Shown here in pieces: positions 1 through 12,024 of a DNA stretch of 64,000 bases. Below the pieces are notes generated by a model, which was not told the origin of the DNA, did not search any database, and saw only the letters and a list, made by a program, of their open reading frames with translations. Source of the DNA: Chitinophagales bacterium. GTDB taxonomy: Bacteria; Bacteroidota; Bacteroidia; Chitinophagales; JADJOU01. The stretch is taken from the NCBI GenBank assembly GCA_016787225.1, contig JAEUUY010000029.1, forward strand, positions 62,001 through 126,000. The letters are read 5' to 3'. Made by a program: the position numbers and the translations under genes. How positions within the stretch are numbered: position 1 is the stretch's first letter; each line of letters begins with the position of its first letter.

Positions 1-288
1 GCCTGTATCAACTTCTATTGAGCTAATGGTGTCATGCCAATTTGTACCATGGATAAAAAAATCGCTTAGATTAGTTGGCTCGGTGAACACTATAGCACCT
101 CCATTTTTTTCGGGGTGATTGTAAAGAATGGCTATAGGATATTTACCTTTGCCAATTATTACATTGTTTCTATCCTGTAGTACATGATCTCTCCTTGCTA
201 TGTCAGCAGCAGAATCACCACCGAAAAGGTCACCTATTAAACCTACTCCGACTTTAGCAAGACCTAGACCTACTCCTATAATACTCAT
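1..288 (-). CDS. Partial ORF of phage-like block, Gly-rich hydrophobic N-terminus
   Basis: The reading frame is open from an ATG at 286-288 to the window edge, so only the first 96 codons are visible and the C-terminus is missing. Residues 2-24 are glycine-rich and hydrophobic (GVGLGLAKVGVGLIGDLFGG), which could be a membrane-associated segment; the rest is soluble-looking. It starts 21 bases after the candidate structural gene at 310-1125 and is probably co-transcribed with it. In small membrane-containing or filamentous phages this position would suit a minor virion protein, but I do not recognise the family. The ORF itself is likely real; its function is unknown. Confidence 0.55.
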   Translation of the reverse strand, partial: MSIIGVGLGLAKVGVGLIGDLFGGDSAADIARRDHVLQDRNNVIIGKGKYPIAILYNHPEKNGGAIVFTEPTNLSDFFIHGTNWHDTISSIEVDTG

Positions 289-309
289 ATTGTATTTATT
301 TAGATTTGT

Positions 310-1125
310 TTAAACAAATTGTTCTTCAATAATTGAGTAGTAGAATTGAGTGTCCTCGGCATGCTTCAATTTGATCATTGTTAGCATGGAACTTCTAGAC
401 CAGCCTGTCAAATCAATGGCAATAGAGCCTGAATAATTTGAACATAAGTGGTTTTTTGCAACAACTCCTATAGATTGAGTAGAATTATTTAGAAAATCTA
501 GCTCTCTAGCTATTAAGGTGTTAGTGACTCCGTTTGAAAAATTCAGGTCAATTTCTCTTAAAGAGTCCAAAATAACATACTTCTGTCCAATATATTTAAT
601 TGGGGTAAATTGTCCGGCGTGAGCGGTATCTCTATAAAGACAATTCAAAGACAATGAGCGGTCGGCAGTTGTAGAAATTGCGTATAGTTGGCATTTAACA
701 TCTGCGTTGTTTGAAGTTATTGAAACATTCAACCAACCTTTATTGGAAAATGGAACTTGTCCTGTAGAAATGAGATAAGGTACAGTGATAATAACCTTAT
801 CATTTTCTGTAGCTTTGAGTAAAATAGGAAGATTTGCAGTTTGTGCAGCTAGGGCAATTTCATGCAAAGTAAGATTTGAAATAAGATTTTTTGACTTAAT
901 TAGTGGTGTATCCAAAGAAACCTCTACTTTTTTGAGAACGTTCTCTATAATAGGGGAAAATTCAGAATCTTCTTTGCGAAGTAAATTATTTACTTCGTCT
1001 AAGTCATTGCCTTGTCCATAGCTTAAATTAGATTCTACCTCAAAAAAAAGTAAATTGCAAGGCTCTGTAATTTTTTCGTTTCTTAATTGTAACACGTTGG
1101 TTACTTGGTGCGCTATAATTGACAT
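310..1125 (-). CDS. Unknown 271-aa protein, candidate virion structural protein
   Basis: This 271-residue protein has no signal peptide or transmembrane segment. The C-terminal two thirds is rich in alternating polar and hydrophobic stretches typical of beta-sandwich folds. It lies directly downstream of the rolling-circle Rep gene, 39 bases after it, with its own possible -7 box in the gap. In small phages the major capsid gene is often a separately promoted gene of this size. That placement is the only reason to propose a capsid role (for example a jelly-roll capsid of the kind found in Flavobacterium phage FLiP); I see no diagnostic motif. A cargo or accessory protein is equally possible. 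Confidence 0.55.
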   Translation of the reverse strand: MSIIAHQVTNVLQLRNEKITEPCNLLFFEVESNLSYGQGNDLDEVNNLLRKEDSEFSPIIENVLKKVEVSLDTPLIKSKNLISNLTLHEIALAAQTANLPILLKATENDKVIITVPYLISTGQVPFSNKGWLNVSITSNNADVKCQLYAISTTADRSLSLNCLYRDTAHAGQFTPIKYIGQKYVILDSLREIDLNFSNGVTNTLIARELDFLNNSTQSIGVVAKNHLCSNYSGSIAIDLTGWSRSSMLTMIKLKHAEDTQFYYSIIEEQFV

Positions 1126-1150
1126 GTGATTTAATTTTTTAATTACAACG

Positions 1151-1158
1151 CAAAAATA
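1151..1158 (-). promoter_or_regulatory. Possible -7 box for the 271-aa gene
   Basis: TATTTTTG on the minus strand matches the Bacteroidetes TAnnTTTG -7 element and sits 26 bases upstream of the start codon at 1125, in the short gap after rep. No clear TTG -33 element is visible at the expected distance, so the call rests on one box. Confidence 0.33.
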
Positions 1159-1164
1159 TAAAGC

Positions 1165-2613
1165 CTAGGAATGAGTGAAATATCTTATTCGCTTTTTTTC
1201 GCTCATTAGCTTAGGGATAAGGCTTGTACCGTTTTGCTCGTTTAATTTATGCATTAATTCCATTAAAAAGTCGTGTATTTCTATGATTTTCTGCCTTTTA
1301 GTCTTTCTAATTTCATTGATTTTTAAGGTTATGTCTCTTTCGTCATGTTTTAAAGGCTTAATTTTTTTTGATTTGAAATAAAAAGAGGGTACAATTTCAA
1401 CAAATTTTCGCTCAAGATAGTACCAATTATATGGATGCCATTGAACAACTGCATTTGCAAAGTATTGATAGTTGTAATTATCCAAAATTTCATTGTCCAG
1501 ATATTGGTAAATATAGTAGGTGTAAATTTGTTTTTCAAATCTATAGTTTGCTTCCTTGGTCCATTTATGTTTTTCGATTTTAAAGTTTTGGTTAAATATA
1601 AATTCTATAGGTTTTTCATTGTCAGTTCGAGGTAAATAAAGGAATTTCAAATCTTCATTTATTATTTGAAAATATAGAAGTTTGCAATAGTTTAGAAAGT
1701 CTGGTGAAAGTAAATGGTTTGAAATTTCTATAATTTCACCTGTATCTTTTGAGTAGGTATTTCTTTCCGAGTTAAAAGGTTTTCTATGGTAAATAGTGTT
1801 GCCTTGCAAATCTGTTTCAGTGAATTGGACGTATTCAGTAGAATTATTTAGAAAATATTGCTTGAGTTTGTCTTTGGTTAGACGTATTTCAAAGCGATAG
1901 ACTTTTTCAAACAATATTTTATTTATTTCAAAATATTCCAGGATATAGTCCTTGTTTTTTTTGATTTTCAGTTCCTGCATTTTTTCGTAGAAAGAAAACC
2001 TAAGTCCTGTAGATTCAGAGCCAATTGCATAACTTTCAAAACCTTCCGTTTCGTAATTGTAGACATAAGAATTAAACTTGCGACCGACGCCTTTATGATA
2101 TTGAAATTGGAATCCATATTTATTAGTATAAATTCCTTCTAAGACTTGTTTTAGTTCTATAAAGTTATCACCGCATATATCAATCCTTGAAAGCTTGTAA
2201 GATTGAATATTCAAATGAGCTAAAATTAATCTGATATAGTTTCTTAAACCTTTGTTATAAAACCAAAAGTTATTCATTTTTACGCGGCAATGATTTTGAG
2301 AAAATGCCGCGTTTCCGTTGTGCTCCACTTCAATATCTGCAAGCTTGACAGAATCAAACTCAATTGAGTAGATACGGCGAAAATGTTTTGAGTTTCCTTT
2401 GGTTTCTACAAAAACCAACTTGGTTTGTTCGACTAGTTCGGTTCTTGGATTGAAAACAGTTCTAGTGGTTTCAAATGTACCTGTAGTATTATAAAATGGT
2501 GATTTTTCCCAATCATAAAGACAGGAAAATGAGAGCCAGTCAATATTGACGAGCAACCTTGAAGGGTAAACCTCAATTCTATCTTCGAACTCTTGATAAT
2601 TTATAAATGTCAT
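1165..2613 (-). CDS. Rolling-circle replication initiator, Rep_trans/RstA type
   Basis: At 482 residues this is the largest gene of the block. Three features mark the Rep_trans family of pT181-type plasmid and filamentous-phage initiators: the N-terminal IDWLSFS (24-30); LSRIDICGDN (141-150), which fits the conserved R-x-D-hydrophobic-x-x-D strand; and FYEKMQEL (208-215) followed by VYRFEIRLTKDKL (238-250), matching the Y-x-K...E and R-x-E-x-R-x-K-x-x-L pattern. Y209 is the likeliest nicking tyrosine, by inference. These proteins nick the double-strand origin and stay bound to the 5' end during rolling-circle replication. Three consecutive hairpins lie immediately upstream of the start. The C-terminal extension (about 300-482) is unassigned. 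The virus or plasmid of origin is not settled by this gene alone. Confidence 0.75.
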   Translation of the reverse strand: MTFINYQEFEDRIEVYPSRLLVNIDWLSFSCLYDWEKSPFYNTTGTFETTRTVFNPRTELVEQTKLVFVETKGNSKHFRRIYSIEFDSVKLADIEVEHNGNAAFSQNHCRVKMNNFWFYNKGLRNYIRLILAHLNIQSYKLSRIDICGDNFIELKQVLEGIYTNKYGFQFQYHKGVGRKFNSYVYNYETEGFESYAIGSESTGLRFSFYEKMQELKIKKNKDYILEYFEINKILFEKVYRFEIRLTKDKLKQYFLNNSTEYVQFTETDLQGNTIYHRKPFNSERNTYSKDTGEIIEISNHLLSPDFLNYCKLLYFQIINEDLKFLYLPRTDNEKPIEFIFNQNFKIEKHKWTKEANYRFEKQIYTYYIYQYLDNEILDNYNYQYFANAVVQWHPYNWYYLERKFVEIVPSFYFKSKKIKPLKHDERDITLKINEIRKTKRQKIIEIHDFLMELMHKLNEQNGTSLIPKLMSEKKRIRYFTHS

Positions 2614-2630
2614 TTAGTTAATTTTAGCTG

Positions 2631-2706
2631 TTTTTTGGCATTCCGTTTGCCGAAAAAATGTCCCCCCTTTGGAATTAGGGGACTGCGGTATTACTTAACC
2701 GCAGTC
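2631..2706. other. Hairpin cluster upstream of rep, candidate replication origin
   Basis: Three adjacent inverted repeats fill the gap before rep. The first has arms 2631-2640 and 2648-2658, a ten-pair stem with one bulged G. The second has arms 2661-2665 and 2678-2682 (TCCCC/GGGGA). The third is perfect, with arms 2681-2689 and 2698-2706 (GACTGCGGT/ACCGCAGTC). Rolling-circle double-strand origins are hairpin-rich and usually sit near the rep start, so this is the best origin candidate. The last stem alone could also serve as a terminator for the 74-aa ORF, but no T-tract follows it. Confidence 0.5.
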
Positions 2707-2930
2707 TAAGCGATTAAATCGTGCAATTCCTTTTTTAAATTTCTGTAATACTCTAATTCTCTAGGAGTTATGTTAGAGATTCGAAGCAGACGTATATATT
2801 TGTCATTAACTAATTTTAAGAGTGTTTTTATCCTATGTTTTTTAGTAATATAACAAACTTTGTTAGAAGATTTTTTTAGTTGTTTTTCTTCTTTATCGGT
2901 GTCTAGAATGTAATTTAGTATAACGCTCAT
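2706..2930 (-). CDS. Small basic ORF of phage-like block
   Basis: A 74-residue, lysine/arginine-rich, probably helical protein with no signal peptide and no motif I recognise. It lies between two hairpin-bearing spacers, upstream of rep and in the same direction. The basic charge would fit a DNA-binding or accessory replication protein, but that is a guess. Its stop codon overlaps the last origin hairpin. Confidence 0.5.
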   Translation of the reverse strand: MSVILNYILDTDKEEKQLKKSSNKVCYITKKHRIKTLLKLVNDKYIRLLRISNITPRELEYYRNLKKELHDLIA

Positions 2931-3066
2931 AATACAAGATTTTTGAGTTTTTGTAACTTATATTGATTGTATATGTGTTCTAGAGTAGTAGAAGTCATGA
3001 AGATTGATTTTATTTTTTTAGTTTAACATGTTGTATCACAATAATGTTAGTTTTATTTTCATAGTT

Positions 3067-3115
3067 AGAGGACTAGGCTAGTCAAAAAAAGGGTTCCCCG
3101 CTCGCCTAGTCCTCT
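3067..3115. repeat. 12-bp perfect inverted repeat with 25-base loop
   Basis: Arms 3067-3078 (AGAGGACTAGGC) and 3104-3115 are perfect complements. A nested palindrome GACTAGGCTAGTC (3071-3083) reuses one arm, so two alternative hairpins compete. The loop carries a run of seven A. It sits in the 220-base gene-free spacer 2931-3150. In a single-stranded-DNA phage such a structure could be a second-strand origin or packaging signal; it could also be a terminator for the methyltransferase gene. Confidence 0.6.
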
Positions 3116-3150
3116 TTATTCGGGTCTATCTGATTAATAGAATAAATTTT

Positions 3151-3693
3151 TTAAACATTGTCTACAAAATTTGAGTGATAAATAGAGTCAACTAAGCCAA
3201 TAGGAGTTTTAGAACGGTTAGAAGTTGACATGTTTTGGAAAACAGTTTTTGAAACGTTAGGTAGGTCATAAGTACCTGGATTGATATTTTTGAAGTCACC
3301 CCATAAACCAGTAGGTTTAGGAGTAGGAAAACCGTACTCACCTAAATTAATAGACTGTTTAGGCGGACCTATATAATTTCTAATTCTTGAGTGAAAAGGA
3401 TTCTCAATAATGAAAACCTTTGGATTGTAAAGGTACTTCATTCTAAAACATAGATCTAAAGTTGAAAGACCATAATCGAGGTCAAACTCACCCGGTCGAG
3501 TACGGGCTCTAGAGAAATAGGTACAAGGCGGATAACATATAAGACCGTCTAACTTTAAATCCGGTACATAAGGAAATGTAATTAAATTATCACCGCACAG
3601 CTTAGAATCATTTTGAATAACTAAATAACCCTTATCTCTAAAATAATTTGAGGTAACGCCAGAAGCGTCGAATAAAACCATTAGAATTTTCAT
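3151..3693 (-). CDS. Small phage-type C5-cytosine DNA methyltransferase-like protein
   Basis: The 180-residue protein has an abbreviated cytosine-C5 methyltransferase layout seen in phages: a Rossmann-like start (MKILMVLFDASGV), the PPC catalytic loop at 55-57, ENP at 97-99, the KPTGLWG segment at 126-132 and a C-terminal S-K-T-P helix start at 161-164. It lacks a separate target-recognition domain. It overlaps the upstream 99-aa gene by four bases, indicating translational coupling. A likely role is protecting viral DNA from host restriction by modifying it; some relatives of this shape may be inactive or act on modified nucleotides. The family assignment is fairly secure; activity is not shown. 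Confidence 0.7.
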   Translation of the reverse strand: MKILMVLFDASGVTSNYFRDKGYLVIQNDSKLCGDNLITFPYVPDLKLDGLICYPPCTYFSRARTRPGEFDLDYGLSTLDLCFRMKYLYNPKVFIIENPFHSRIRNYIGPPKQSINLGEYGFPTPKPTGLWGDFKNINPGTYDLPNVSKTVFQNMSTSNRSKTPIGLVDSIYHSNFVDNV

Positions 3694-3989
3694 TTGTTTA
3701 TAGTAAAATATGATTGAGAATAAGTGGATTGAAATTCTAGTAGAGTAATTTTTTTAAGGTTTAAAATAGAAACTCCGTTTATTTTACGGTCAACTAAGCC
3801 TTGTTGGTAACTAAATGTCATTGAGGTGCCCAAAAGGGTGACTGTAAAACCTTGACTCAAATAGGAAGCAGCTTGAATTGCTGATAAAACTACTAAAGTT
3901 TGATTATTCTTTTTTTCTTTATTTTTAGATAAAAAAGCAAAGACAGAAGGAATAATTTGTGTAACAAAATCTAAAATGGTTTTTAACAT
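3690..3989 (-). CDS. Small membrane-anchored ORF of phage-like block
   Basis: A 99-residue protein whose first 20 residues are a hydrophobic helix (ILDFVTQIIPSVFAFL), followed by a lysine-rich stretch and a beta-like region with GFTVTLLGTSMTF. It lies between the 80-aa ORF and the methyltransferase gene, overlapping the latter by four bases. The single N-terminal membrane helix would suit a virion membrane or host-envelope protein. I do not recognise the family. Confidence 0.5.
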   Translation of the reverse strand: MLKTILDFVTQIIPSVFAFLSKNKEKKNNQTLVVLSAIQAASYLSQGFTVTLLGTSMTFSYQQGLVDRKINGVSILNLKKITLLEFQSTYSQSYFTINK

Positions 3990-4001
3990 GATTATTTATT
4001 T

Positions 4002-4244
4002 TTAGGGGTTAAAAGTTGGGTTTATTAATTGGTCTGAAATTGTAATGCAATACATATAGTCTAAAACCTCAATAGAGACATTATTTTTAGCTGGTATGGT
4101 TATTTGTTTACCATTTATTTTTAATTCCCATGAGGAAGGAATTTTAAATGAATTTTCGCTTATTTGGTTGTCTTTTGCGAAAAGTAAAATGGACTTAAGA
4201 TAATTCCATTTTCTATAATACATTCTAGGAGATTCGTATGACAT
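4002..4244 (-). CDS. Small unknown ORF of phage-like block
   Basis: An 80-residue soluble-looking protein without recognisable motif, in a tight minus-strand series (12 bases before the 99-aa gene, three bases after the 85-aa gene). The tight packing of short ORFs is typical of a small viral genome. No function proposed. Confidence 0.45.
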   Translation of the reverse strand: MSYESPRMYYRKWNYLKSILLFAKDNQISENSFKIPSSWELKINGKQITIPAKNNVSIEVLDYMYCITISDQLINPTFNP

Positions 4245-4247
4245 AGT

Positions 4248-4505
4248 TTAATTTGTGGGGATATCGAAATTTTCAGATAAAAACATGATAAAATTTTCGA
4301 TCTTGGTAATGGTTGTTTCTAGATTTTCCCATTTTATTTGATAAATAAATAAATCACCTTTTTGAATAAAAATCAAAGTCAAATAATCAGTCTTATAAGT
4401 AAAAGTTAGAGAGCGAAAAGAAAACCACGTTTGAGTACGAGAACATGGAATCTTAAATCCTTGAGAACGGAAATATTTTCTAATTAATTTTAGTCTGGAA
4501 TGCAT
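4248..4505 (-). CDS. Small basic unknown ORF of phage-like block
   Basis: An 85-residue protein with a strongly basic N-terminus (HSRLKLIRKYFRSQGFK) and a beta-rich middle. It overlaps the end of the upstream 62-aa ORF by 16 bases, so the two are probably translated together. The basic start might bind nucleic acid. No family recognised. Confidence 0.45.
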   Translation of the reverse strand: MHSRLKLIRKYFRSQGFKIPCSRTQTWFSFRSLTFTYKTDYLTLIFIQKGDLFIYQIKWENLETTITKIENFIMFLSENFDIPTN

Positions 4506-4678
4506 AGAATAATCTTAATTTTTAAAATAAATTGTTCATTAATATTTATAAGTTCCTTAGGAACTTGACCTTCCTTTAATTGAAATTCAATAAGATTAAC
4601 TAGATTTCTTTGATATTGTTCTTGTTCAGAGTATTCGTAAATATTTGGAAAATCGATTTCAAGCTGCTTACTTAACAT
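4490..4678 (-). CDS. First small ORF of the phage-like operon
   Basis: A 62-residue acidic, helical protein of unknown function; it is the promoter-proximal ORF of the minus-strand series. Its ATG (4676-4678) lies inside the left arm of a 10-bp inverted repeat whose right arm belongs to the dif-like site, so transcription or start-site use could be affected by whatever binds there. Confidence 0.4.
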   Translation of the reverse strand: MLSKQLEIDFPNIYEYSEQEQYQRNLVNLIEFQLKEGQVPKELININEQFILKIKIILCIPD

Positions 4679-4717
4679 ATAAATGAAATTTGTCTTATAA
4701 TTTACATTATGTTAAGT
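4670..4717. repeat. 10-bp inverted repeat spanning phage start and dif-like arm
   Basis: ACTTAACATA (4670-4679) and TATGTTAAGT (4708-4717) are perfect inverted copies 28 bases apart. The right copy is part of the putative XerD arm, so the left copy is a second, oppositely oriented half-site. CTX-phi-type phages fold two inverted dif-like sites into a hairpin attachment site; an operator for the first phage gene is the plainer alternative. Confidence 0.5.
4690..4717 (+). other. dif-like Xer recombination site, candidate attachment site
   Basis: Read 5' to 3' the site is an 11-base left arm (4690-4700, ending ATAA), a six-base centre TTTACA (4701-4706) and a right arm TTATGTTAAGT (4707-4717). 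The right arm matches 10 of 11 positions of the E. coli dif XerD arm, and the inner ATAA of the XerC arm is also kept; the outer left arm is poor. It lies exactly between the phage-like block and the first host gene, and no integrase gene is visible, which fits integration by host XerCD. The other end of the element is outside the window, so a chance match or a resident chromosomal dif remains possible. Confidence 0.4.
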
Positions 4718-4813: not shown

Positions 4814-5806
4814 ATGAATATTAAATTGAACTTGTTAGGATTTATCCTACTCACTCTATTCGGTTGTGAAGTTAAAGCCTCAGATACTGCACCGGACACG
4901 GTGACTACGGGTATTTATGTTACCAGTATTCATAATATAGACTTTCGTCTTCAGGAGTATGATATTCATTTTTGGGTTTGGTTTAGGTATAAGAACAGAG
5001 AATTAAATTTTCCCGCCAATATTGAAATACCTACAGCAAAAAATGCTAATAGATTGTATCTGTATATAGATACATCTAATAAAGATCAAACCTATGTTCT
5101 AATGAAATATGAATGCAAAATGAATGATATATGGAAAGTGGATAACTATCCATTTGATAACCAGACTTTAAGATTTAGAATCGAAAATTCACAATTTGAC
5201 AATAAGGCTATGATTTATAAGATAGATCAAACAGGTTCAAAATTTGATTTAGAGGGCTATAAACGCGGTAGATTAATCAGCGAGTGGAAAATTGATAGCT
5301 TTGATGTCAATGTATTCAATAAGTCTTATTTTACCAGTTTTGGCGCAGATACGATACAGTCTCCAGAACAAATTTTCCATGCTTATAGAGTCATGATTAA
5401 TATCTCAAGACCAGTATTTGGTCTTTTTTTAAAGACCTTTCTCGGCATGTATATTGCTTTTCTTATGGCTTTTGTATGTTTTTTCATTCATTCGAATGGT
5501 ATTGATACTCGTTTTGGTATCAGTGTAGGTTCACTATTCGCAGTAATTGGAAATAAATATATAATTGACTCTCACCTACCAGATTCCAATGTATTTTCCT
5601 TAGTCGATAGCTTACACGGATTGACTTTAGCTGTCATTTTTATTGTTGTAGCCTCTACAGCCTATTGTCTTATGTTGATAAATAAAGAAAAGTATGCAAC
5701 AGTTAAGCGTTTCGATATGATAATGGCCTGGTTAGTAGGTTTAACCTATTTAATAGCAAACATTATTTTAATTTATAAGGCTAACATAATAGTTCCAGTT
5801 AAATGA
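4814..5806 (+). CDS. Pentameric ligand-gated ion channel (Cys-loop-like) homologue
   Basis: The protein has 330 residues. An N-terminal signal peptide (1-22) has a lipobox-like LTLFGC, so lipidation is conceivable. A beta-rich extracellular domain (about 25-200) contains the family hallmark YPFDNQTLRFRIEN, equivalent to the Pro-loop FPxD core of Cys-loop receptors, preceded by VTSIHNIDFRLQEYDIHFWVWFRY. Four membrane segments follow between about 203 and 326, the usual M1-M4 arrangement, with a very short M3-M4 loop as in prokaryotic members. As in other bacterial members the cysteine loop itself is absent. It should be an inner-membrane channel opened by an unknown ligand. The fold call is fairly confident; ion selectivity cannot be read from the sequence. 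Confidence 0.72.
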   Translation: MNIKLNLLGFILLTLFGCEVKASDTAPDTVTTGIYVTSIHNIDFRLQEYDIHFWVWFRYKNRELNFPANIEIPTAKNANRLYLYIDTSNKDQTYVLMKYECKMNDIWKVDNYPFDNQTLRFRIENSQFDNKAMIYKIDQTGSKFDLEGYKRGRLISEWKIDSFDVNVFNKSYFTSFGADTIQSPEQIFHAYRVMINISRPVFGLFLKTFLGMYIAFLMAFVCFFIHSNGIDTRFGISVGSLFAVIGNKYIIDSHLPDSNVFSLVDSLHGLTLAVIFIVVASTAYCLMLINKEKYATVKRFDMIMAWLVGLTYLIANIILIYKANIIVPVK

Positions 5807-6294: not shown

Positions 6295-7596
6295 TTAAAC
6301 CTTATTATGAGTTTTCAGCAGCTTTTGCATATAATCTTCAATAATCACGATACTCTCCTCTACCCCATTTTCATGTTTCATTTTCTCACCTATTTTTCGT
6401 GCATTCGATTGAAAGGGTTCTTTTTCTAGTGTTTCAATGCCTCGAAGGACTTTCTCAAAACTTAATTTATTAAATGGAATATGTAGACCCAGACCTGTCT
6501 TTTCAATCAAATCTCCATTATTAGGCTGATCAGCGAGTATGGATGCAATTATCATAGGTATCTGACCATGCAATACTGCGCCAATAGTGCCAATACCTCC
6601 ATGTATGATAGCTAGTTTGCATTTGGGCATGAGCCACTCATGATTTATGCGATCTAGTTCGAACAAATTTTTGTGCTGGATATTCAGAAACGGCTTGGTC
6701 CAGCCACGACAGTAAATAATGCGGTATTGGGTTTCTTCAAGCAATCGCACAATTACAGCTTTCAATAAATCCGGATAAGGCACAGGAATACTTCCAAAAC
6801 CTATATAGATGGGCTTCTTCCCTTCTTCGAGCCAATCTTGCAGCGCTTGGGGTATTTCTTCATTTTTCATAGAGCTCCGCAATGTCGAAGGAAGATTTAA
6901 AAATCCCGTGACCACAGAGTTAGAAGGCCAGTCTGGAGGCTGATGGAGTAATTGACTACTCATAGGATGAATAATCAATCGATTGTGAAGTAGAAATTCA
7001 TGTCGAACTTGAGACAGAGACCATTTAGGCAAATGAAGTAAGCGCGCAGATTGATTCACCTCCCGCAGAAGAAACACTAGACAAGCAGCATAGGAAAATA
7101 TGGTATAAGAAAGTTTATTGATCCAACCTATATTCTGAAAGCCAAAACCTACCACCGGAAATTCTTTTGTAATCGAATATGGCATGCTAAAATTGAGAAT
7201 GGCATAGGGTATGTTTCTTTCTTCAGCTATCGGTAAAATATTGGGTAAGACAAGCCCACTCACTATCATAAAGTCAAATTTATCGGCGGCATCTGCTATG
7301 ACAGAAATTGTTTTTGCTAGATACTTATCTGAATGTTTGCGGAGTAGTAGCGCAAAGGTCAATAAATTACCTTTACGAGTGACATTCATGACTTCGTCAT
7401 CATAGACTTCTTTTTCCATATCGAGATCAAGAGGAATAAAGTCGATTCCATAATCTTTGATGAGTGGTTCAAAGTTTTTAAAGGTCACTATACTTACCAG
7501 ATGTCCACGATTCTTAAGCCTTATTGCTAATGCTATAAAGGGTTGAATATCTCCTCTGGAGCCTTTTGTGATTAAACCAAATCTTTTGGGGTTCAA
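6295..7596 (-). CDS. GT1-family (MGT/sterol-type) glycosyltransferase
   Basis: At 433 residues it has the two Rossmann domains of GT-B enzymes. The start KRFGLITKGSRGDIQPFIAL is the acceptor-side motif of the GT28 N-terminal/sterol glucosyltransferase group. The C-terminal domain has GFGSIPVP, IIYCRGW and the donor-binding block HEWLMPKCKLAIIHGGIGTIGAVLHGQIPMI, followed by ADQPNNG. It would transfer a sugar from a nucleotide-sugar to a lipid or small hydrophobic acceptor in the cytoplasm. Acceptor and sugar cannot be deduced. tspO follows directly. Confidence 0.85.
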   Translation of the reverse strand: MNPKRFGLITKGSRGDIQPFIALAIRLKNRGHLVSIVTFKNFEPLIKDYGIDFIPLDLDMEKEVYDDEVMNVTRKGNLLTFALLLRKHSDKYLAKTISVIADAADKFDFMIVSGLVLPNILPIAEERNIPYAILNFSMPYSITKEFPVVGFGFQNIGWINKLSYTIFSYAACLVFLLREVNQSARLLHLPKWSLSQVRHEFLLHNRLIIHPMSSQLLHQPPDWPSNSVVTGFLNLPSTLRSSMKNEEIPQALQDWLEEGKKPIYIGFGSIPVPYPDLLKAVIVRLLEETQYRIIYCRGWTKPFLNIQHKNLFELDRINHEWLMPKCKLAIIHGGIGTIGAVLHGQIPMIIASILADQPNNGDLIEKTGLGLHIPFNKLSFEKVLRGIETLEKEPFQSNARKIGEKMKHENGVEESIVIIEDYMQKLLKTHNKV

Positions 7597-7852: not shown

Positions 7853-9244
7853 CTATTTTAAATAAATTTCGTCTCTAACATAAGTGTTGTTAAGCCAAAA
7901 ACAATGCTTTGTATATTCTTTTGCATTTGTCAATTTGTCTTTTGTCGGCAAAGAATAGGTGTCTGCTGCGTTTATTGCGTGTGGTCTAACGTGTGAAACC
8001 GAATTAAATGTCTTGTTTGGAAAATTTGTATATCGAGTTTTACCTTTAACTTCCCTAACAATATTTCCTTTGGAAACAAGGTCTTTCGTTTTAGCCCAAA
8101 CTTTCTCTGCTTCCAAAATGGCCGCATAAGGCATATTCCAAAACTTCACTTTTCTCAAAACTAATTGCTCATTTTCAAATTGGAAAAATACAAACAAAAA
8201 TTTATGCTCTAAAATGTCTTTAAAATTTGAATCGTCCCACTCTTCATTTACTATTTCTTCGTATTTGAAATTTGGAAACGAAATATCTTCTTTTGGTAAA
8301 TTGTTTTCTTTTAGTCTTACGGTTTTTACAATAATTTCAGCTTTTTCAAACTCCTCAATTTCTTTGTCAAGTTCAATTCCTAAAATTGCTTTTGTAAGAT
8401 TCGCATAGAAGCTCTTTGCGGTTGTATTTAATTCAATTCCAATTGATTTAAGTATTTGCTCAATTGTCTTACCGTAATAAGGTTTGAATTTAGAAATTAC
8501 GATCTCTTCAATGGTCTGCTTTTTTGCAACTGCTACTGATGGAATTAATTTGCCATAAACACCAGTTGCGTCATTTGCAATAGATGCAATGATATGATTT
8601 ACATAACCTTGTTTTAGTGAGTAAGCTCTTTGTTTGGCTGGAATTTCGCTAAAAGGTTGTTTTCTAACTGATGCAGCGTTTGCACCTTTTGTACAAGCAC
8701 CTAAATAAAAAGTATCTCCTTCTGAAAGTTCGTGTGCTTTTCCGTCAGCAATTTTTTGTTTAATGAGTTCCCAATCCTTTTTTATTATTTCTAAGTCTGT
8801 GCTTGGGAAATTCCATTCATCAACAAGTTTTATTAAATAGTCAAGTATGTCATAACCCGCTTGATGTAAATAGAAAATCAAAAGAATATTTGCGTTCTTT
8901 TTCCAAAAATCACTGTCTTCAAATTGTTGGTTTACAACTTCAAGGTAATTGATAATGTTTAAGACCAATCTTTCTTTTGAACGATACTCATTGTTCTTCA
9001 ACTGCATTAAAGGAGAAGATTTGAGTTCCATACCAATTTCAAAGAAATCTGCTTCTGATTTGGAATTTGGATCATAACCAAAATAAAACTTCTCAAGTAT
9101 CTGTCCGAAGTTTCCCTTACCCGTATAGTTGTGCAATAATACTTCGGGGTCGCAAATCTCTCTTAAAGTTTTTCCTTTAAGCAGTTTAGCGTAATCAATT
9201 ACTGATTTTTTATCTTTCGGATTATATTGTCTTTTCTTATCCAT
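7853..9244 (-). CDS. Type II restriction endonuclease, Sau3AI/MutH family
   Basis: The 463-residue protein begins with a MutH/Sau3AI catalytic domain: GNFGQILEKFYFGYDPNSK followed by D66, E73 and K75 in EADFFEIGMELK. E51, D66, E73 and K75 reproduce the E...D(x6)E-x-K spacing of MutH. The C-terminal half (about 280-463) looks like the second, non-catalytic MutH-like domain of Sau3AI, and the total length is close to Sau3AI. The expected activity is cleavage at GATC, probably as a looped dimer-like complex, but specificity is inferred from family only. It overlaps the upstream PD-(D/E)XK gene by eight bases and belongs to the restriction-modification operon. Confidence 0.85.
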   Translation of the reverse strand: MDKKRQYNPKDKKSVIDYAKLLKGKTLREICDPEVLLHNYTGKGNFGQILEKFYFGYDPNSKSEADFFEIGMELKSSPLMQLKNNEYRSKERLVLNIINYLEVVNQQFEDSDFWKKNANILLIFYLHQAGYDILDYLIKLVDEWNFPSTDLEIIKKDWELIKQKIADGKAHELSEGDTFYLGACTKGANAASVRKQPFSEIPAKQRAYSLKQGYVNHIIASIANDATGVYGKLIPSVAVAKKQTIEEIVISKFKPYYGKTIEQILKSIGIELNTTAKSFYANLTKAILGIELDKEIEEFEKAEIIVKTVRLKENNLPKEDISFPNFKYEEIVNEEWDDSNFKDILEHKFLFVFFQFENEQLVLRKVKFWNMPYAAILEAEKVWAKTKDLVSKGNIVREVKGKTRYTNFPNKTFNSVSHVRPHAINAADTYSLPTKDKLTNAKEYTKHCFWLNNTYVRDEIYLK

Positions 9245-10406
9245 TTACTTCAGCTATAATTTCAAAATCCAACAAGTTAGTTTGTGCGTTAAATGTATAA
9301 CTAACTAGTTTAACATCATTCCATGTTGCAGAAACAGAAGGACGAACTCCATAAATAAATTTCCTCTCAACAATATTTTCAAATTCTGTTAAAGCATCAT
9401 CTGTAAATTCAAATCCTACAAGGAATGCCTTTATCATTCCATAGTCGCCAAACGCATATTCATTTTTTACCCAATCTACGTATTTCATTAATTGCAATAC
9501 ATCTTGTGCGTTAACTGTGTTTCTTTTGATTTCAACTACCAAGTAATTACTTAATGTTGGTTTTTGATTCTCAATGTAGCGATAACCAAAAATATCCATT
9601 TTATCAATGTAATCAATTGGCTTGAATGGTGATGCAATAACCTGATGAGTCAAGTAATCCCAATTACCGAAAATATTAGTAGTTTGTGGATGATTTATTG
9701 TGAGTTGGAAAATTATTGCAGCTTCAAGTGCCATTTCGTGTTTTAAACTTCCGTTTTCATTTACGATTGTGTTTAAAAATGGTGCAATTGACAATGAATA
9801 TAGGTTGTTAGTCCCTGTTCTTTCATTGATTAAATTGTGAAACTCTTGAAAATTTGTGTCGAAAGTGTTTTCGTTGCTTGGATTATCAATAGCTTCAATA
9901 TTTCTTCTAAGCAGTATATTTTTGAAAGCTTGATTTTCTTCATCTGAAAACTTAATAAAACTTAATTTCCAAAATGCTCTTAGTATTTTAAAGCTATTTG
10001 GTGAAGAAGAAAGTATTTCATCCATATCAATTCCATTTCTAAAAAAAACGGGATATGGAGTAAATGTGCAAATGAAACGCATATTAATACTTTCAAAACC
10101 AATGTCTAATAACAATTGATTTTGAATTTCATCATAGTTTTGAACTGTAGGCAAATTTGCATTTGGATAATTTAAAAACTTACAATCTCCATTTATATTT
10201 GTCAATGTGCCAATGCCATAAATTTTCCTATCAATGAAAAAATATACATTATCGCCTTCTCTCATAGAACAATAATCGGCAAAAGTTCCCTCGTGATGAA
10301 TACGCCAAACATTATTCGGAGCCGATAATTTAGTTGAATAAATTCCCATATTGATTGAATCAATCAGGGATGCTTCACTATCTAAACTGAAAAGGAATCC
10401 TGCCAT
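9237..10406 (-). CDS. RM-associated protein with PD-(D/E)XK nuclease-like C-terminus
   Basis: A 389-residue protein inside the restriction-modification operon. The N-terminal ~120 residues (NNVWRIHHEGTFADYCSMREGDNVYFFID...YGIGTLTN) resemble a PUA/EVE-like barrel that could bind modified bases. The C-terminal half has E228 on a helix, D271 in DKMDIFGY, and E292-x-K294 in YLVVEIKR followed by QLMKYVDWV, the usual PD-(D/E)XK order. It overlaps the methyltransferase gene by 25 bases and the endonuclease gene by eight. It may be a second nuclease, for example cutting modified DNA, or a specificity/assembly partner. I do not know a named family for the whole protein. Confidence 0.65.
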   Translation of the reverse strand: MAGFLFSLDSEASLIDSINMGIYSTKLSAPNNVWRIHHEGTFADYCSMREGDNVYFFIDRKIYGIGTLTNINGDCKFLNYPNANLPTVQNYDEIQNQLLLDIGFESINMRFICTFTPYPVFFRNGIDMDEILSSSPNSFKILRAFWKLSFIKFSDEENQAFKNILLRRNIEAIDNPSNENTFDTNFQEFHNLINERTGTNNLYSLSIAPFLNTIVNENGSLKHEMALEAAIIFQLTINHPQTTNIFGNWDYLTHQVIASPFKPIDYIDKMDIFGYRYIENQKPTLSNYLVVEIKRNTVNAQDVLQLMKYVDWVKNEYAFGDYGMIKAFLVGFEFTDDALTEFENIVERKFIYGVRPSVSATWNDVKLVSYTFNAQTNLLDFEIIAEVNG

Positions 10407-11689
10407 TCTTTAGTTGCTTGTTTAATTTTGTCTGTTAATGATGTACCAATTTTTTCGATTACCCCAACTACTAATGCATTGCCCATAAAAAAAGCTCTTT
10501 TGGTATCTGATATTCCTTCAAGTTTAGTATGGTCGTCTGGAAACATATTTAAACGTTCAAGTTCAACAGGAGAAAGTCTTCTGTAACCTTTAGGAGTTTG
10601 TATGACGTGTTTAAATCTTGATGGAGATTTTCCTCCTTCACCGGTTATTATTGTTCTTGATGGTTTGTCTAAAGAATCTGGAAAAATCATTCCACCTTCA
10701 CTATAATGATAGTCAAAGCCTTGTGCGTTTTTTCGCATTTCCTTTTTTGGACCTTTTAAATAAATCCATTTATCAAGTTCGTTTTTGTCAATAAAAAACT
10801 CAGATGTGACTTCTCCGTTTTGGATAAGGTCTTTCAAAATCGTGAAATTTCCATCATAGTTTGGATATGTTTTTAGAGTTGTAACAAATCCATTTATCAT
10901 TAAACCTGTGTTTTCAAAAAGTCCTGTTGTTCCATTTTTATTGAAGTTTTCAGAAATTGAAACAATATCGTCTTTCAATTCAAATTCAGTTGGACACAAA
11001 GAGTTTTCAGAACTTACTGGAAATGCTTCGGCTAAAGTTCCTTCCTCTAAAATCCATTCAGTAGGATTAACTTCTTTTATACTTTCATAAATATTAGTTC
11101 CTTGTAAATATGCTAAGATGAAAACTCTTCTTCGTCTTTGGGGCATACCAAAGTCTGCTGCATTTATAATTCTCCATTCGACAGCATAGCCAAGTTCATT
11201 TAAACTTTGTAAGATAATAGCAAAGTCTCGTCCTCGTTGTCCAGATGGCGAAATGAGAAGTCTATCAACGTTTTCAAGAAATAAATATTTTGGTTTATTC
11301 TTTTTCTCTGAAATTATTTTGTGAATGCTCCACCACAAAACACCTTTCTTTCCGATAAGTCCTTTTGAGTTTTTTAAGGTTGTTGCAACTGAATAGTCTT
11401 GACAAGGAAAGCCACCAACCAATAAATCGTGGTCAGGAATTCTTGAAACATCAACTTGAGCAATGTCTTCATTAGAATGTCCGTTTTTTCCAAAACGATT
11501 TTCATAAACCAAAGAAGCGTGTTGCGTTTTTGTCGATGGTTCCCATTGGTTGCTCCAAACCACTTTGTAAGGTGACTTTAGAGGTTTTTTATATCCTGTT
11601 GATGCTGATTTCCCATTCCATCCTTCAAGTCCAAGACGAAAGCCCCCTACGCCTGCAAATAATTCTATGACTTTAATTTCATTTTCCAT
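10382..11689 (-). CDS. DNA cytosine-5 methyltransferase of the RM system
   Basis: At 435 residues all main C5-methyltransferase motifs are present: FAGVGGF (11-17, motif I), GGFPCQDYS (92-100, catalytic Cys96, motif IV), FLENVDRLL (137-145, motif VI), MPQRRRRVFILAY (motif VIII), RRLSPVELERLNMFPDD (motif IX) and MGNALVVGVIEKIG (motif X). A variable target-recognition region lies between VIII and IX. The partner endonuclease is Sau3AI-like, so protection of GATC by methylating C is the natural expectation (M.Sau3AI does this), but the target is inferred. It overlaps the regulator gene by 11 bases and the next gene by 25. Confidence 0.92.
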   Translation of the reverse strand: MENEIKVIELFAGVGGFRLGLEGWNGKSASTGYKKPLKSPYKVVWSNQWEPSTKTQHASLVYENRFGKNGHSNEDIAQVDVSRIPDHDLLVGGFPCQDYSVATTLKNSKGLIGKKGVLWWSIHKIISEKKNKPKYLFLENVDRLLISPSGQRGRDFAIILQSLNELGYAVEWRIINAADFGMPQRRRRVFILAYLQGTNIYESIKEVNPTEWILEEGTLAEAFPVSSENSLCPTEFELKDDIVSISENFNKNGTTGLFENTGLMINGFVTTLKTYPNYDGNFTILKDLIQNGEVTSEFFIDKNELDKWIYLKGPKKEMRKNAQGFDYHYSEGGMIFPDSLDKPSRTIITGEGGKSPSRFKHVIQTPKGYRRLSPVELERLNMFPDDHTKLEGISDTKRAFFMGNALVVGVIEKIGTSLTDKIKQATKEWQDSFSV

Positions 11690-12005
11690 TGTGAACAGTT
11701 TTTAGGTATTTCACTTTTTCCTCAGCAACCTTTAAGATACCTAAATCTGCTTCCTCGTCAAGAATTTTGTAAGCGATAACATCACTTAAAAAATCATTCT
11801 GCAATTCTTTTTCGTCAACTTTAAAAAAGTCAGCAACTTGCTTGATAATTTGCTTTGTTGGCAGTCTCTCGTTACGTTCAATCTTAGCAAGAAGTGAAGT
11901 ATCAATAGTAATTTGCTCTGAAACAAATTTCAAAGTCAAGCTCGCTTCCTCTCTCAAATGTCTAAGATGTTCTCCAAATGATTTTGTCTTCTTAATTGTT
12001 GCCAT
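11679..12005 (-). CDS. XRE-family regulator of the RM operon
   Basis: 108 residues counted from the ATG at 12003-12005; an upstream in-frame TTG at 12014 lies inside an operator and is less likely. The N-terminal 70 residues form an XRE/Cro helix-turn-helix (FGEHLRHLREEASLTLKFVSE, then SLLAKIERNERLPT). It resembles controller (C) proteins of type II systems or the XRE regulators fused to RM operons. It is first in the operon and overlaps the methyltransferase gene by 11 bases. Two matched operators flank its promoter, so autoregulation is likely; C proteins delay nuclease production until DNA is modified. Confidence 0.8.
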   Translation of the reverse strand: MATIKKTKSFGEHLRHLREEASLTLKFVSEQITIDTSLLAKIERNERLPTKQIIKQVADFFKVDEKELQNDFLSDVIAYKILDEEADLGILKVAEEKVKYLKTVHNGK

Positions 12006-12007
12006 AT

Positions 12008-12024
12008 TGGTCAAATAATGTCCA
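12008..12024. promoter_or_regulatory. Operator O2 of the RM regulator
   Basis: TGGTC, seven bases, GTCCA: a 17-base near-palindrome immediately upstream of the regulator's ATG and adjoining the -7 box. It has the same architecture as O1 at 12047-12063. Binding here would block promoter clearance or translation start. Confidence 0.55.

Follow-up and report, generated by a model that had tools for sequence, protein, structure and literature searches.

A phiCjT23-like prophage between two copies of dif in a Chitinophagales genome, probably integrated by the host Xer recombinases

At one end of a stretch of DNA from a Chitinophagales bacterium, a run of phage-like genes stops at a dif-type sequence, which raises the question of how these genes entered the chromosome and which recombination enzymes were used. 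The window, by which we mean the whole analysed stretch of 64 kb, is C29:62001-126000 of a 2.96-Mb draft genome (G000) in 34 contigs. The element sits between two dif copies, and the phage therefore most likely borrowed the recombination enzymes of the cell. The features on which the analysis rests are listed below, in window coordinates unless a contig is named.

1-4717, minus strand: right-hand portion of the prophage (8,344 bp), which continues to the left as far as attL
310-1125, minus strand: putative major capsid protein, 271 aa, predicted double jelly-roll
1165-2613, minus strand: Rep (rolling-circle replication initiator), 482 aa, related to phiCjT23 gp03
2706-2930, minus strand: phage ORF, 74 aa, no clear family (ORF list, family scans)
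3151-3693, minus strand: phage DNA methyltransferase-like protein, 180 aa (phrog_757, E 9.7e-15)
3690-3989, minus strand: phage ORF, 99 aa, no clear family (ORF list, family scans)
4002-4244, minus strand: phage ORF, 80 aa, no family (ORF list, family scans)
4248-4505, minus strand: phage ORF, 85 aa, no family (ORF list, family scans)
4490-4678, minus strand: 62-aa ORF, the first of the phage, reading away from the XerC arm, which lies 11 bp from its start codon
4670-4680, minus strand: inverted copy of the host XerD arm (10/11), covering the start codon of the ORF at 4490-4678
4690-4717, plus strand: attR, a complete 28-bp dif (XerC arm 4690-4700, centre 4701-4706, host XerD arm 4707-4717)
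4814-5806, plus strand: ligand-gated-channel-like protein, chromosomal neighbour right of attR (Neur_chan_LBD, E 3.1e-6)
C29:58346-58373 (L004 3346-3373): attL, direct repeat of attR, outside the window to its left

Boundary sites and the host dif

The right boundary, attR, consists of the XerC arm TTGTCTTATAA, the centre TTTACA and the XerD arm TTATGTTAAGT, and was the sole close dif match in a scan of the window (28/28, runner-up 19). The preliminary description had seen paired half-sites here. Its six-base centre and XerD arm stand, as does a true dif at the boundary, but the site is a whole 28-mer including an XerC arm, of which only half had been recognised. Nor is the inverted copy at 4670, which had been named as the partner, the main one: this is the direct repeat attL, TTGTCTTATAA-TTTACA-GTATGTTATTT, located 8,344 bp to the left and identical to attR at 25 of 28 bases. 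The two share the XerC arm and centre and differ solely at positions 1, 9 and 10 of the XerD arm, the first of which adjoins the XerD cleavage point in attL. A site with a dif-like XerC arm and centre and a divergent XerD arm is of the TLCphi/GGI type, and, as in an integrative mobile element exploiting Xer (IMEX), the element is inserted at the chromosomal dif, is bounded by direct dif-like sites and has no recombinase gene of its own.

The dif pattern matches twice in the own genome, at the two prophage ends, and once each in three congeners (G001, G002, G003) and in G005 of the same family; the congener G004 (62% complete) has no match. Across wider sets, the first pattern matched 16 of 40 relatives, own genome counted in, and a broader pattern 171 of 298 genomes of the order, with two sites in five of these (G000, G006, G138, G173 and G274) and one in the others, as read by eye from the table. 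In G002 and G003 an empty dif is flanked by the same two genes, to judge by eye an acetyltransferase-like one on the left and a glycosyltransferase-like one on the right. In G001 this left gene ends about 400 bp before the empty dif, and genes for a 152-aa protein and a glycosyltransferase-like protein lie to the right. The empty sites of the congeners end in TTATGTTAA followed by GT, TT or CT, and the intact XerD arm of attR is therefore the host's, while GTATGTTATTT is the phage's. The preliminary description had suggested a comparison with the host dif and a search for empty sites, and had regarded a site in relatives lacking the element as speaking against its proposal. Such sites do occur, but an empty dif is evidence for insertion. 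The earlier view of a phage-like element that ends at a dif-type site, and hence of integration by Xer, was right in outline. The position of dif is now also fixed for this genus.

On the own contig, the GC skew has a value of +0.060 on the left of attL and of -0.013 on the right of attR, a noisy change in a draft genome of 34 contigs. In G024 (20 stretches of 20 kb) a negative skew becomes positive between 1.2 and 1.35 Mb, and across its dif at 2.54 Mb the skew goes from +0.030 to about zero, which, although noisy, is what a terminus site would give. The host encodes XerD on another contig (335.2 bits, family cut-off 329.6) and, also on another contig, a XerC-like protein whose best family is TIGR02224 at 285.6 bits, under the cut-off of 335.15. 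A PF00589 search found three loci in the genome, none of them on contig C29.

Some chromosomal features of the window may be recorded here. The channel-like gene at 4814-5806 starts 96 bp from attR and is unmatched in the dif flanks of the compared relatives. A cytosine-methyltransferase-like protein (by eye), two neighbouring proteins and an HTH protein at 7853-12014 probably form a restriction-modification cluster near dif. Several window proteins have, by eye, C-terminal sorting-type ends, which are a signature of Bacteroidota.

Genes of the prophage and its relatives

We counted 18 ORFs as prophage genes, all on one strand, and Pfam and PHROG scans of these found no recombinase gene. The G+C content between the att sites is 31.0%, against 34.4 and 35.3% in the 10-kb flanks. 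The position of the first ORF beside the XerC arm resembles the layout of phiCjT23, in which gp01 lies beside attP. Among the other ORFs, one matches phage lysozyme (phrog_90, E 1.1e-23), a 236-aa protein has weak beta/gamma-crystallin-type matches, and several short ORFs have apparent membrane spans (by eye). A 140-aa protein just inside attL (C29:58380-58802, L004 3380-3802, minus strand), with an apparent signal peptide by eye, is a candidate cargo gene.

The prophage shares with phiCjT23-like phages a homologous rolling-circle Rep. The match to PF02486 is under the curated cut-off (E 1.5e-5), blastp against phiCjT23 gp03 gives E 1.9e-5 with motifs in common, and a profile of seven Rep relatives, searched among the 18 proteins of the element, finds the prophage Rep at E 5.5e-15. 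Directly after Rep, the place of the capsid gene in phiCjT23, follows the 271-aa protein. A profile of 18 phiCjT23-like capsid proteins fails to detect this protein (hhalign probability 0.5) and likewise fails to detect the capsid of FLiP, which is reported to have the same fold as that of phiCjT23 (PMC9719478); with one more row in the profile, the 271-aa protein ranks first of the 18 in both comparisons, weakly. Structure prediction from the single sequence gave no fold (pLDDT 31). A model built with 12 phiCjT23-like Flavobacterium capsid rows reached pLDDT 68.2 and pTM 0.66, and its top PDB match was the phiCjT23 capsid 7zzz_A (Foldseek E 1e-12; Z 18.8, rmsd 3.1, 224 residues aligned), followed by PRD1-type, STIV, PM2 and FLiP capsids. 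The alignment rows may have steered this fold, and a double-jelly-roll capsid protein is therefore a likely, not a proven, assignment.

Viral-contig scans with the own capsid and Rep, with the capsid and Rep of phiCjT23 and with alignment A4 found no relative, and tblastn against phages gave no match for the own Rep and, for the capsid, only 13 uninformative Corynebacterium phage records (E 0.7-0.8). Among the 298 genomes of the order, the capsid matched its own genome only and Rep had two weak other matches (G078 and G227, E about 6e-4). The match in G227 has tailed-phage-like genes and an integrase around it (by eye), and a dif scan of the stretch around the match in G078 (L067) found none. 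The family phrog_37082 matches the own capsid protein at E 2.7e-4; among 395 genomes of the class it was found in the own genome only, and the FLiP capsid did not match it at E 0.01.

Named genomes were also scanned with a four-row Rep alignment, which returned 32 loci, 31 of them titled Flavobacterium and one only Flavobacteriaceae. An intact host dif adjoins Rep in 27 of the 32. In two loci (L096 and L107) the site has the opposite orientation relative to Rep, two are cut on the Rep side (L099 and L103), and L106 has no dif site. A far-end site is present in 26 of the 27, L090 being cut by a contig end, and all 26 prophages with both sites in this layout show the asymmetry of attL and attR described here: the centre is kept at every far end and the host XerD arm at none. 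The XerC arm is kept except for its first base in 23 of the 26 (one further change in L077 and L084, three in L100). The XerD arm begins with G in 23 of the 26, the exceptions being L092, L098 and L105; most of the Flavobacterium loci are closely related, so these are not 23 independent events, and the Chitinophagales case is separate.

Dif-like sites are also carried by free phages. That of phiCjT23, ATGAACTATAA-TTTATA-GTATGATTTGC, matches the Flavobacterium dif at 21 of 28 positions and has the same G at the start of the XerD arm, as has the site of the Cellulophaga phage phi12:2, TTGTACTATAA-TTTATA-GTATGTAAATT; Omtje_1 has a T at that position. The sites of Omtje_1 (L072 1121) and phi12:2 (L073 5139), both on the minus strand, match the Flavobacterium dif at 22 and 24 of 28 positions, respectively, and because they carry such sites these two Cellulophaga phages may be able to integrate. 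FLiP has no clear dif-like site (best 18/28 to the Flavobacterium dif and 20/28 to that of the present host).

An eight-row Rep alignment, searched across the class, matched 4 of 395 genomes, own included. One of these, G618 from another family of the class, encodes a Rep and a capsid that match phiCjT23 (E 6e-22 and 1e-9), the capsid also matching the capsid profile with a probability of 97.9; its proteins have no blastp match to those of the own prophage at E 0.05. The intact site reads TTGTTATATAA-TTTACA-TTATGTTAAAT and the far end AAGAAGTTCAA-TTTACA-TTATGTTAAAT, so that the attP of G618 mirrors that of the Chitinophagales prophage, the XerD arm being kept and the XerC arm lost. A third site with a degenerate XerC arm lies 752 bp before the intact one. 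At this locus (L170, G618:C4:568000-587900) three dif-type sites thus stand in a row at 6970, 7722 and 14447 around the phiCjT23-like prophage, two of them with degenerate XerC arms. A second insertion, since lost or decayed, may have preceded the prophage, and because of the third site we suggest that tandem insertion at dif may occur. The Rep relatives in G512 (L171) and G568 (L172) have no dif-like site by the pattern used. In L171 (G512:C81:8500-28000), Rep is followed by ATPase-like, membrane and lysozyme-like proteins (by eye), possibly another phage of this broad kind. As a tentative generalisation, which we hold with rather less than even confidence, phiCjT23-like phages would have taken up dif repeatedly and reshaped it, with orientation flips and mirror-image attP sites, and a recurrent T-to-G change at the XerD-arm base beside the cleavage point would make integration one-way.

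Route of integration and the inverted arm

The reading that we favour with good confidence is that a phiCjT23-like, FLiP-group ssDNA phage was integrated at the host dif by XerC and XerD acting on double-stranded DNA, through a site of the TLCphi/GGI type. The circular double-stranded replicative form would carry a single dif-like attP, in which the XerC arm and centre are those of dif and the XerD arm is altered. The host recombinases XerC and XerD would bring this attP together with the chromosomal dif, and strand exchange would take place at the common centre. The products would be, on the right, attR, a complete dif rebuilt with the host XerD arm, and, on the left, attL, a weakened site with the phage XerD arm. 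The cell would thereby still be able to resolve chromosome dimers, and FtsK-driven excision is probably prevented by the weak XerD arm, in the way that has been reported for the gonococcal island.

Three other origins can be weighed against the same sites. As in VGJphi, XerC alone might exchange strands and replication finish the integration; the perfect XerC arm is in line with this, as is the alteration of the XerD arm at the first base beside the XerD cleavage point. The centre is identical, however, so that nothing in the overlap bars a second exchange, and in VGJphi the centre itself is reported to differ on the XerD side (PMC5357621); we consider this route unlikely, though it deserves to be kept in view. 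Quite unlikely, in our estimate, is a dead remnant of an old integration that has lost excision and virion production, since Rep and the capsid gene are open frames with no internal stops and both att sites have a full XerC arm and centre; the prophage may be mobile at present. That the sites are a chance resemblance or a mis-assembly is next to negligible. The genome is A+T-rich and yields 136 dif-like hits at up to three mismatches, against 278 for a reversed-pattern control, but the 28/28 and 25/28 copies exactly bound the phage genes and congeners have empty sites.

The preliminary description had also compared the inverted arm with CTXphi, where the phage single strand folds and inverted dif arms pair into an attP recognised by XerC and XerD. 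The copy that it reported at 4670-4680 is real and matches the arm in 10 of 11 bases, on the phage side. The 64-kb window has four inverted 10/11 places (4193, 4670, 23128 and 38816), and two further places match in direct orientation at 10 or 11 bases. An inverted 10/11 copy within 80 nt of the site has a chance of well under 1%, but this feature was chosen after the fact; of 8,560 stretches of 80 nt from window 4002-64000 (step 7, one orientation), 40 reach 10/11, some of which contain the 4670 copy itself. Single-stranded attR folds better than shuffled sequences, with z of -3.9/-4.0 over 48 nt and about -2.5/-3.2 over 101 nt. This pairing involves the host's arm, however: the intact arm is the host's and the altered arm the phage's, so that integration must take place before the perfect inverted pair arises, and because GTATGTTATTT is the phage's arm, the arm that pairs best with the 4670 copy is not in the circular phage. 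The reconstructed attP is close to shuffled, with z of -0.7/-0.2 over 48 nt, -1.8/-1.1 over 101 nt, a value that includes an unrelated hairpin beside attL, and -0.2/0.0 over 148 nt. The phage's own junction does keep a weaker stem, TAACATA with TATGTTA, which is hardly better than shuffled.

The relatives point the same way. No inverted XerD arm was found in any of 27 comparable Flavobacterium attR sites (best 6-8/11), and in 25 of the 27 folds the XerD arm is unpaired with phage DNA. Of the 27 prophages, 21 could be rebuilt as attP, with a mean z of -0.9; in nine of these 21, between two and six of the 11 bases of the XerD arm pair with phage-side sequence, and L083 (z -3.1) and L094 (z -3.2) fold well, which is what can be said in favour of folding. 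A common CTX-like structure is not seen among these prophages. For the present phage, the 150 nt of phage sequence next to either end contain no inverted XerC arm (best 7/11), so that an inverted half-site stands where a CTXphi-type attP has two inverted dif-like sites folding in ssDNA, and the phage already has a usable double-stranded dif-like site. We therefore regard a CTX-like fold as highly improbable, even though the control over equal spans made it slightly more likely, and set the earlier proposal aside. The attR hairpin at 4670-4717, formed between phage sequence and the XerD arm of the host, is nevertheless unusually good, and integration of double-stranded DNA, our preferred explanation, leaves it unaccounted for; the good hairpin forms solely with the host arm of attR, and a function of the 4670-4680 copy is unsupported.

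Comparison with known systems

Among ssDNA phages at dif, CTXphi is reported to have two inverted attP sites 90 nt apart that fold to about 150 nt (PMC5357621, PMC4246890), a two-site fold that is not seen in the present prophage. TLCphi and the gonococcal genetic island are closer in their sites, as their attP is described with a dif-like XerC arm and centre and a divergent XerD arm; for TLCphi a dsDNA substrate on which both recombinases act is reported, and in the case of the island XerCD is stripped from the degenerate site by FtsK translocating in vitro, so that excision is inhibited (PMC5357621, PMC4246890). They differ in kind, TLCphi being a filamentous satellite phage and the island 57 kb long, and in the present prophage no more than 3 of the 11 XerD-arm positions diverge.

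Integration of ssDNA phages at dif without an integrase is likewise shared with two groups of microviruses. The capsid of microviruses is unrelated to that of the prophage described here. The BMV proviruses of Bacteroidetes were reported in 2011 as dif-flanked ssDNA phages without integrase, and an extra dif-like sequence in BMV4-6 was likened by the authors to CTXphi (PMC3091885). The enterogokushoviruses also lie at dif without integrase, with a host-like upstream dif and a variable XerD arm in the downstream one, and xerC or xerD mutants are reported to have given no lysogens (PMC7062461).

In the FLiP group, FLiP itself (Finnlakeviridae) shares the circular order of Rep, capsid and lytic enzyme and the capsid fold predicted for the present prophage; it has eight ORFs between Rep and capsid, and is reported as non-integrating (PMC13269007). 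Pms1 of Mesoflavibacter, a FLiP-group prophage with an ssDNA-phage Rep, was reported as an 11.2-kb circle by an excision-detecting method (PMC8682789) and is thus larger than the present prophage; in the searched text of that paper neither 'dif site' nor 'xer' occurs. The nearest precedent is the set of 57 phiCjT23-like prophages of 6.0-8.4 kb with a 28-nt dif at both ends described by Kejzar et al. (2022), who propose XerC/XerD integration for these Flavobacterium prophages (PMC9719478). The present prophage agrees with them in size, in having Rep followed by a putative capsid gene, in dif at both ends and in the asymmetry of attL and attR, and differs in its host dif and its methyltransferase-like gene. 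Its putative capsid protein has 271 aa against 239 in phiCjT23 and is not alignable by sequence, and its lysozyme-like protein is not clearly related to phiCjT23 gp10 (E 0.051).

Dif-flanked phiCjT23-like prophages were thus already known from Flavobacterium, and what is new is the present host with its different dif. In the parts of the open-access literature available as text, we found no mention of orientation flips, of a mirror-image attP or of the recurrence of G. The prophage extends Xer/dif integration by this group of ssDNA phages to a host that, by its dif, is not Flavobacterium, and the natural attP variants, with the XerC or the XerD arm kept and in both orientations, can be used to test how FtsK and XerCD discriminate between phage and host dif.
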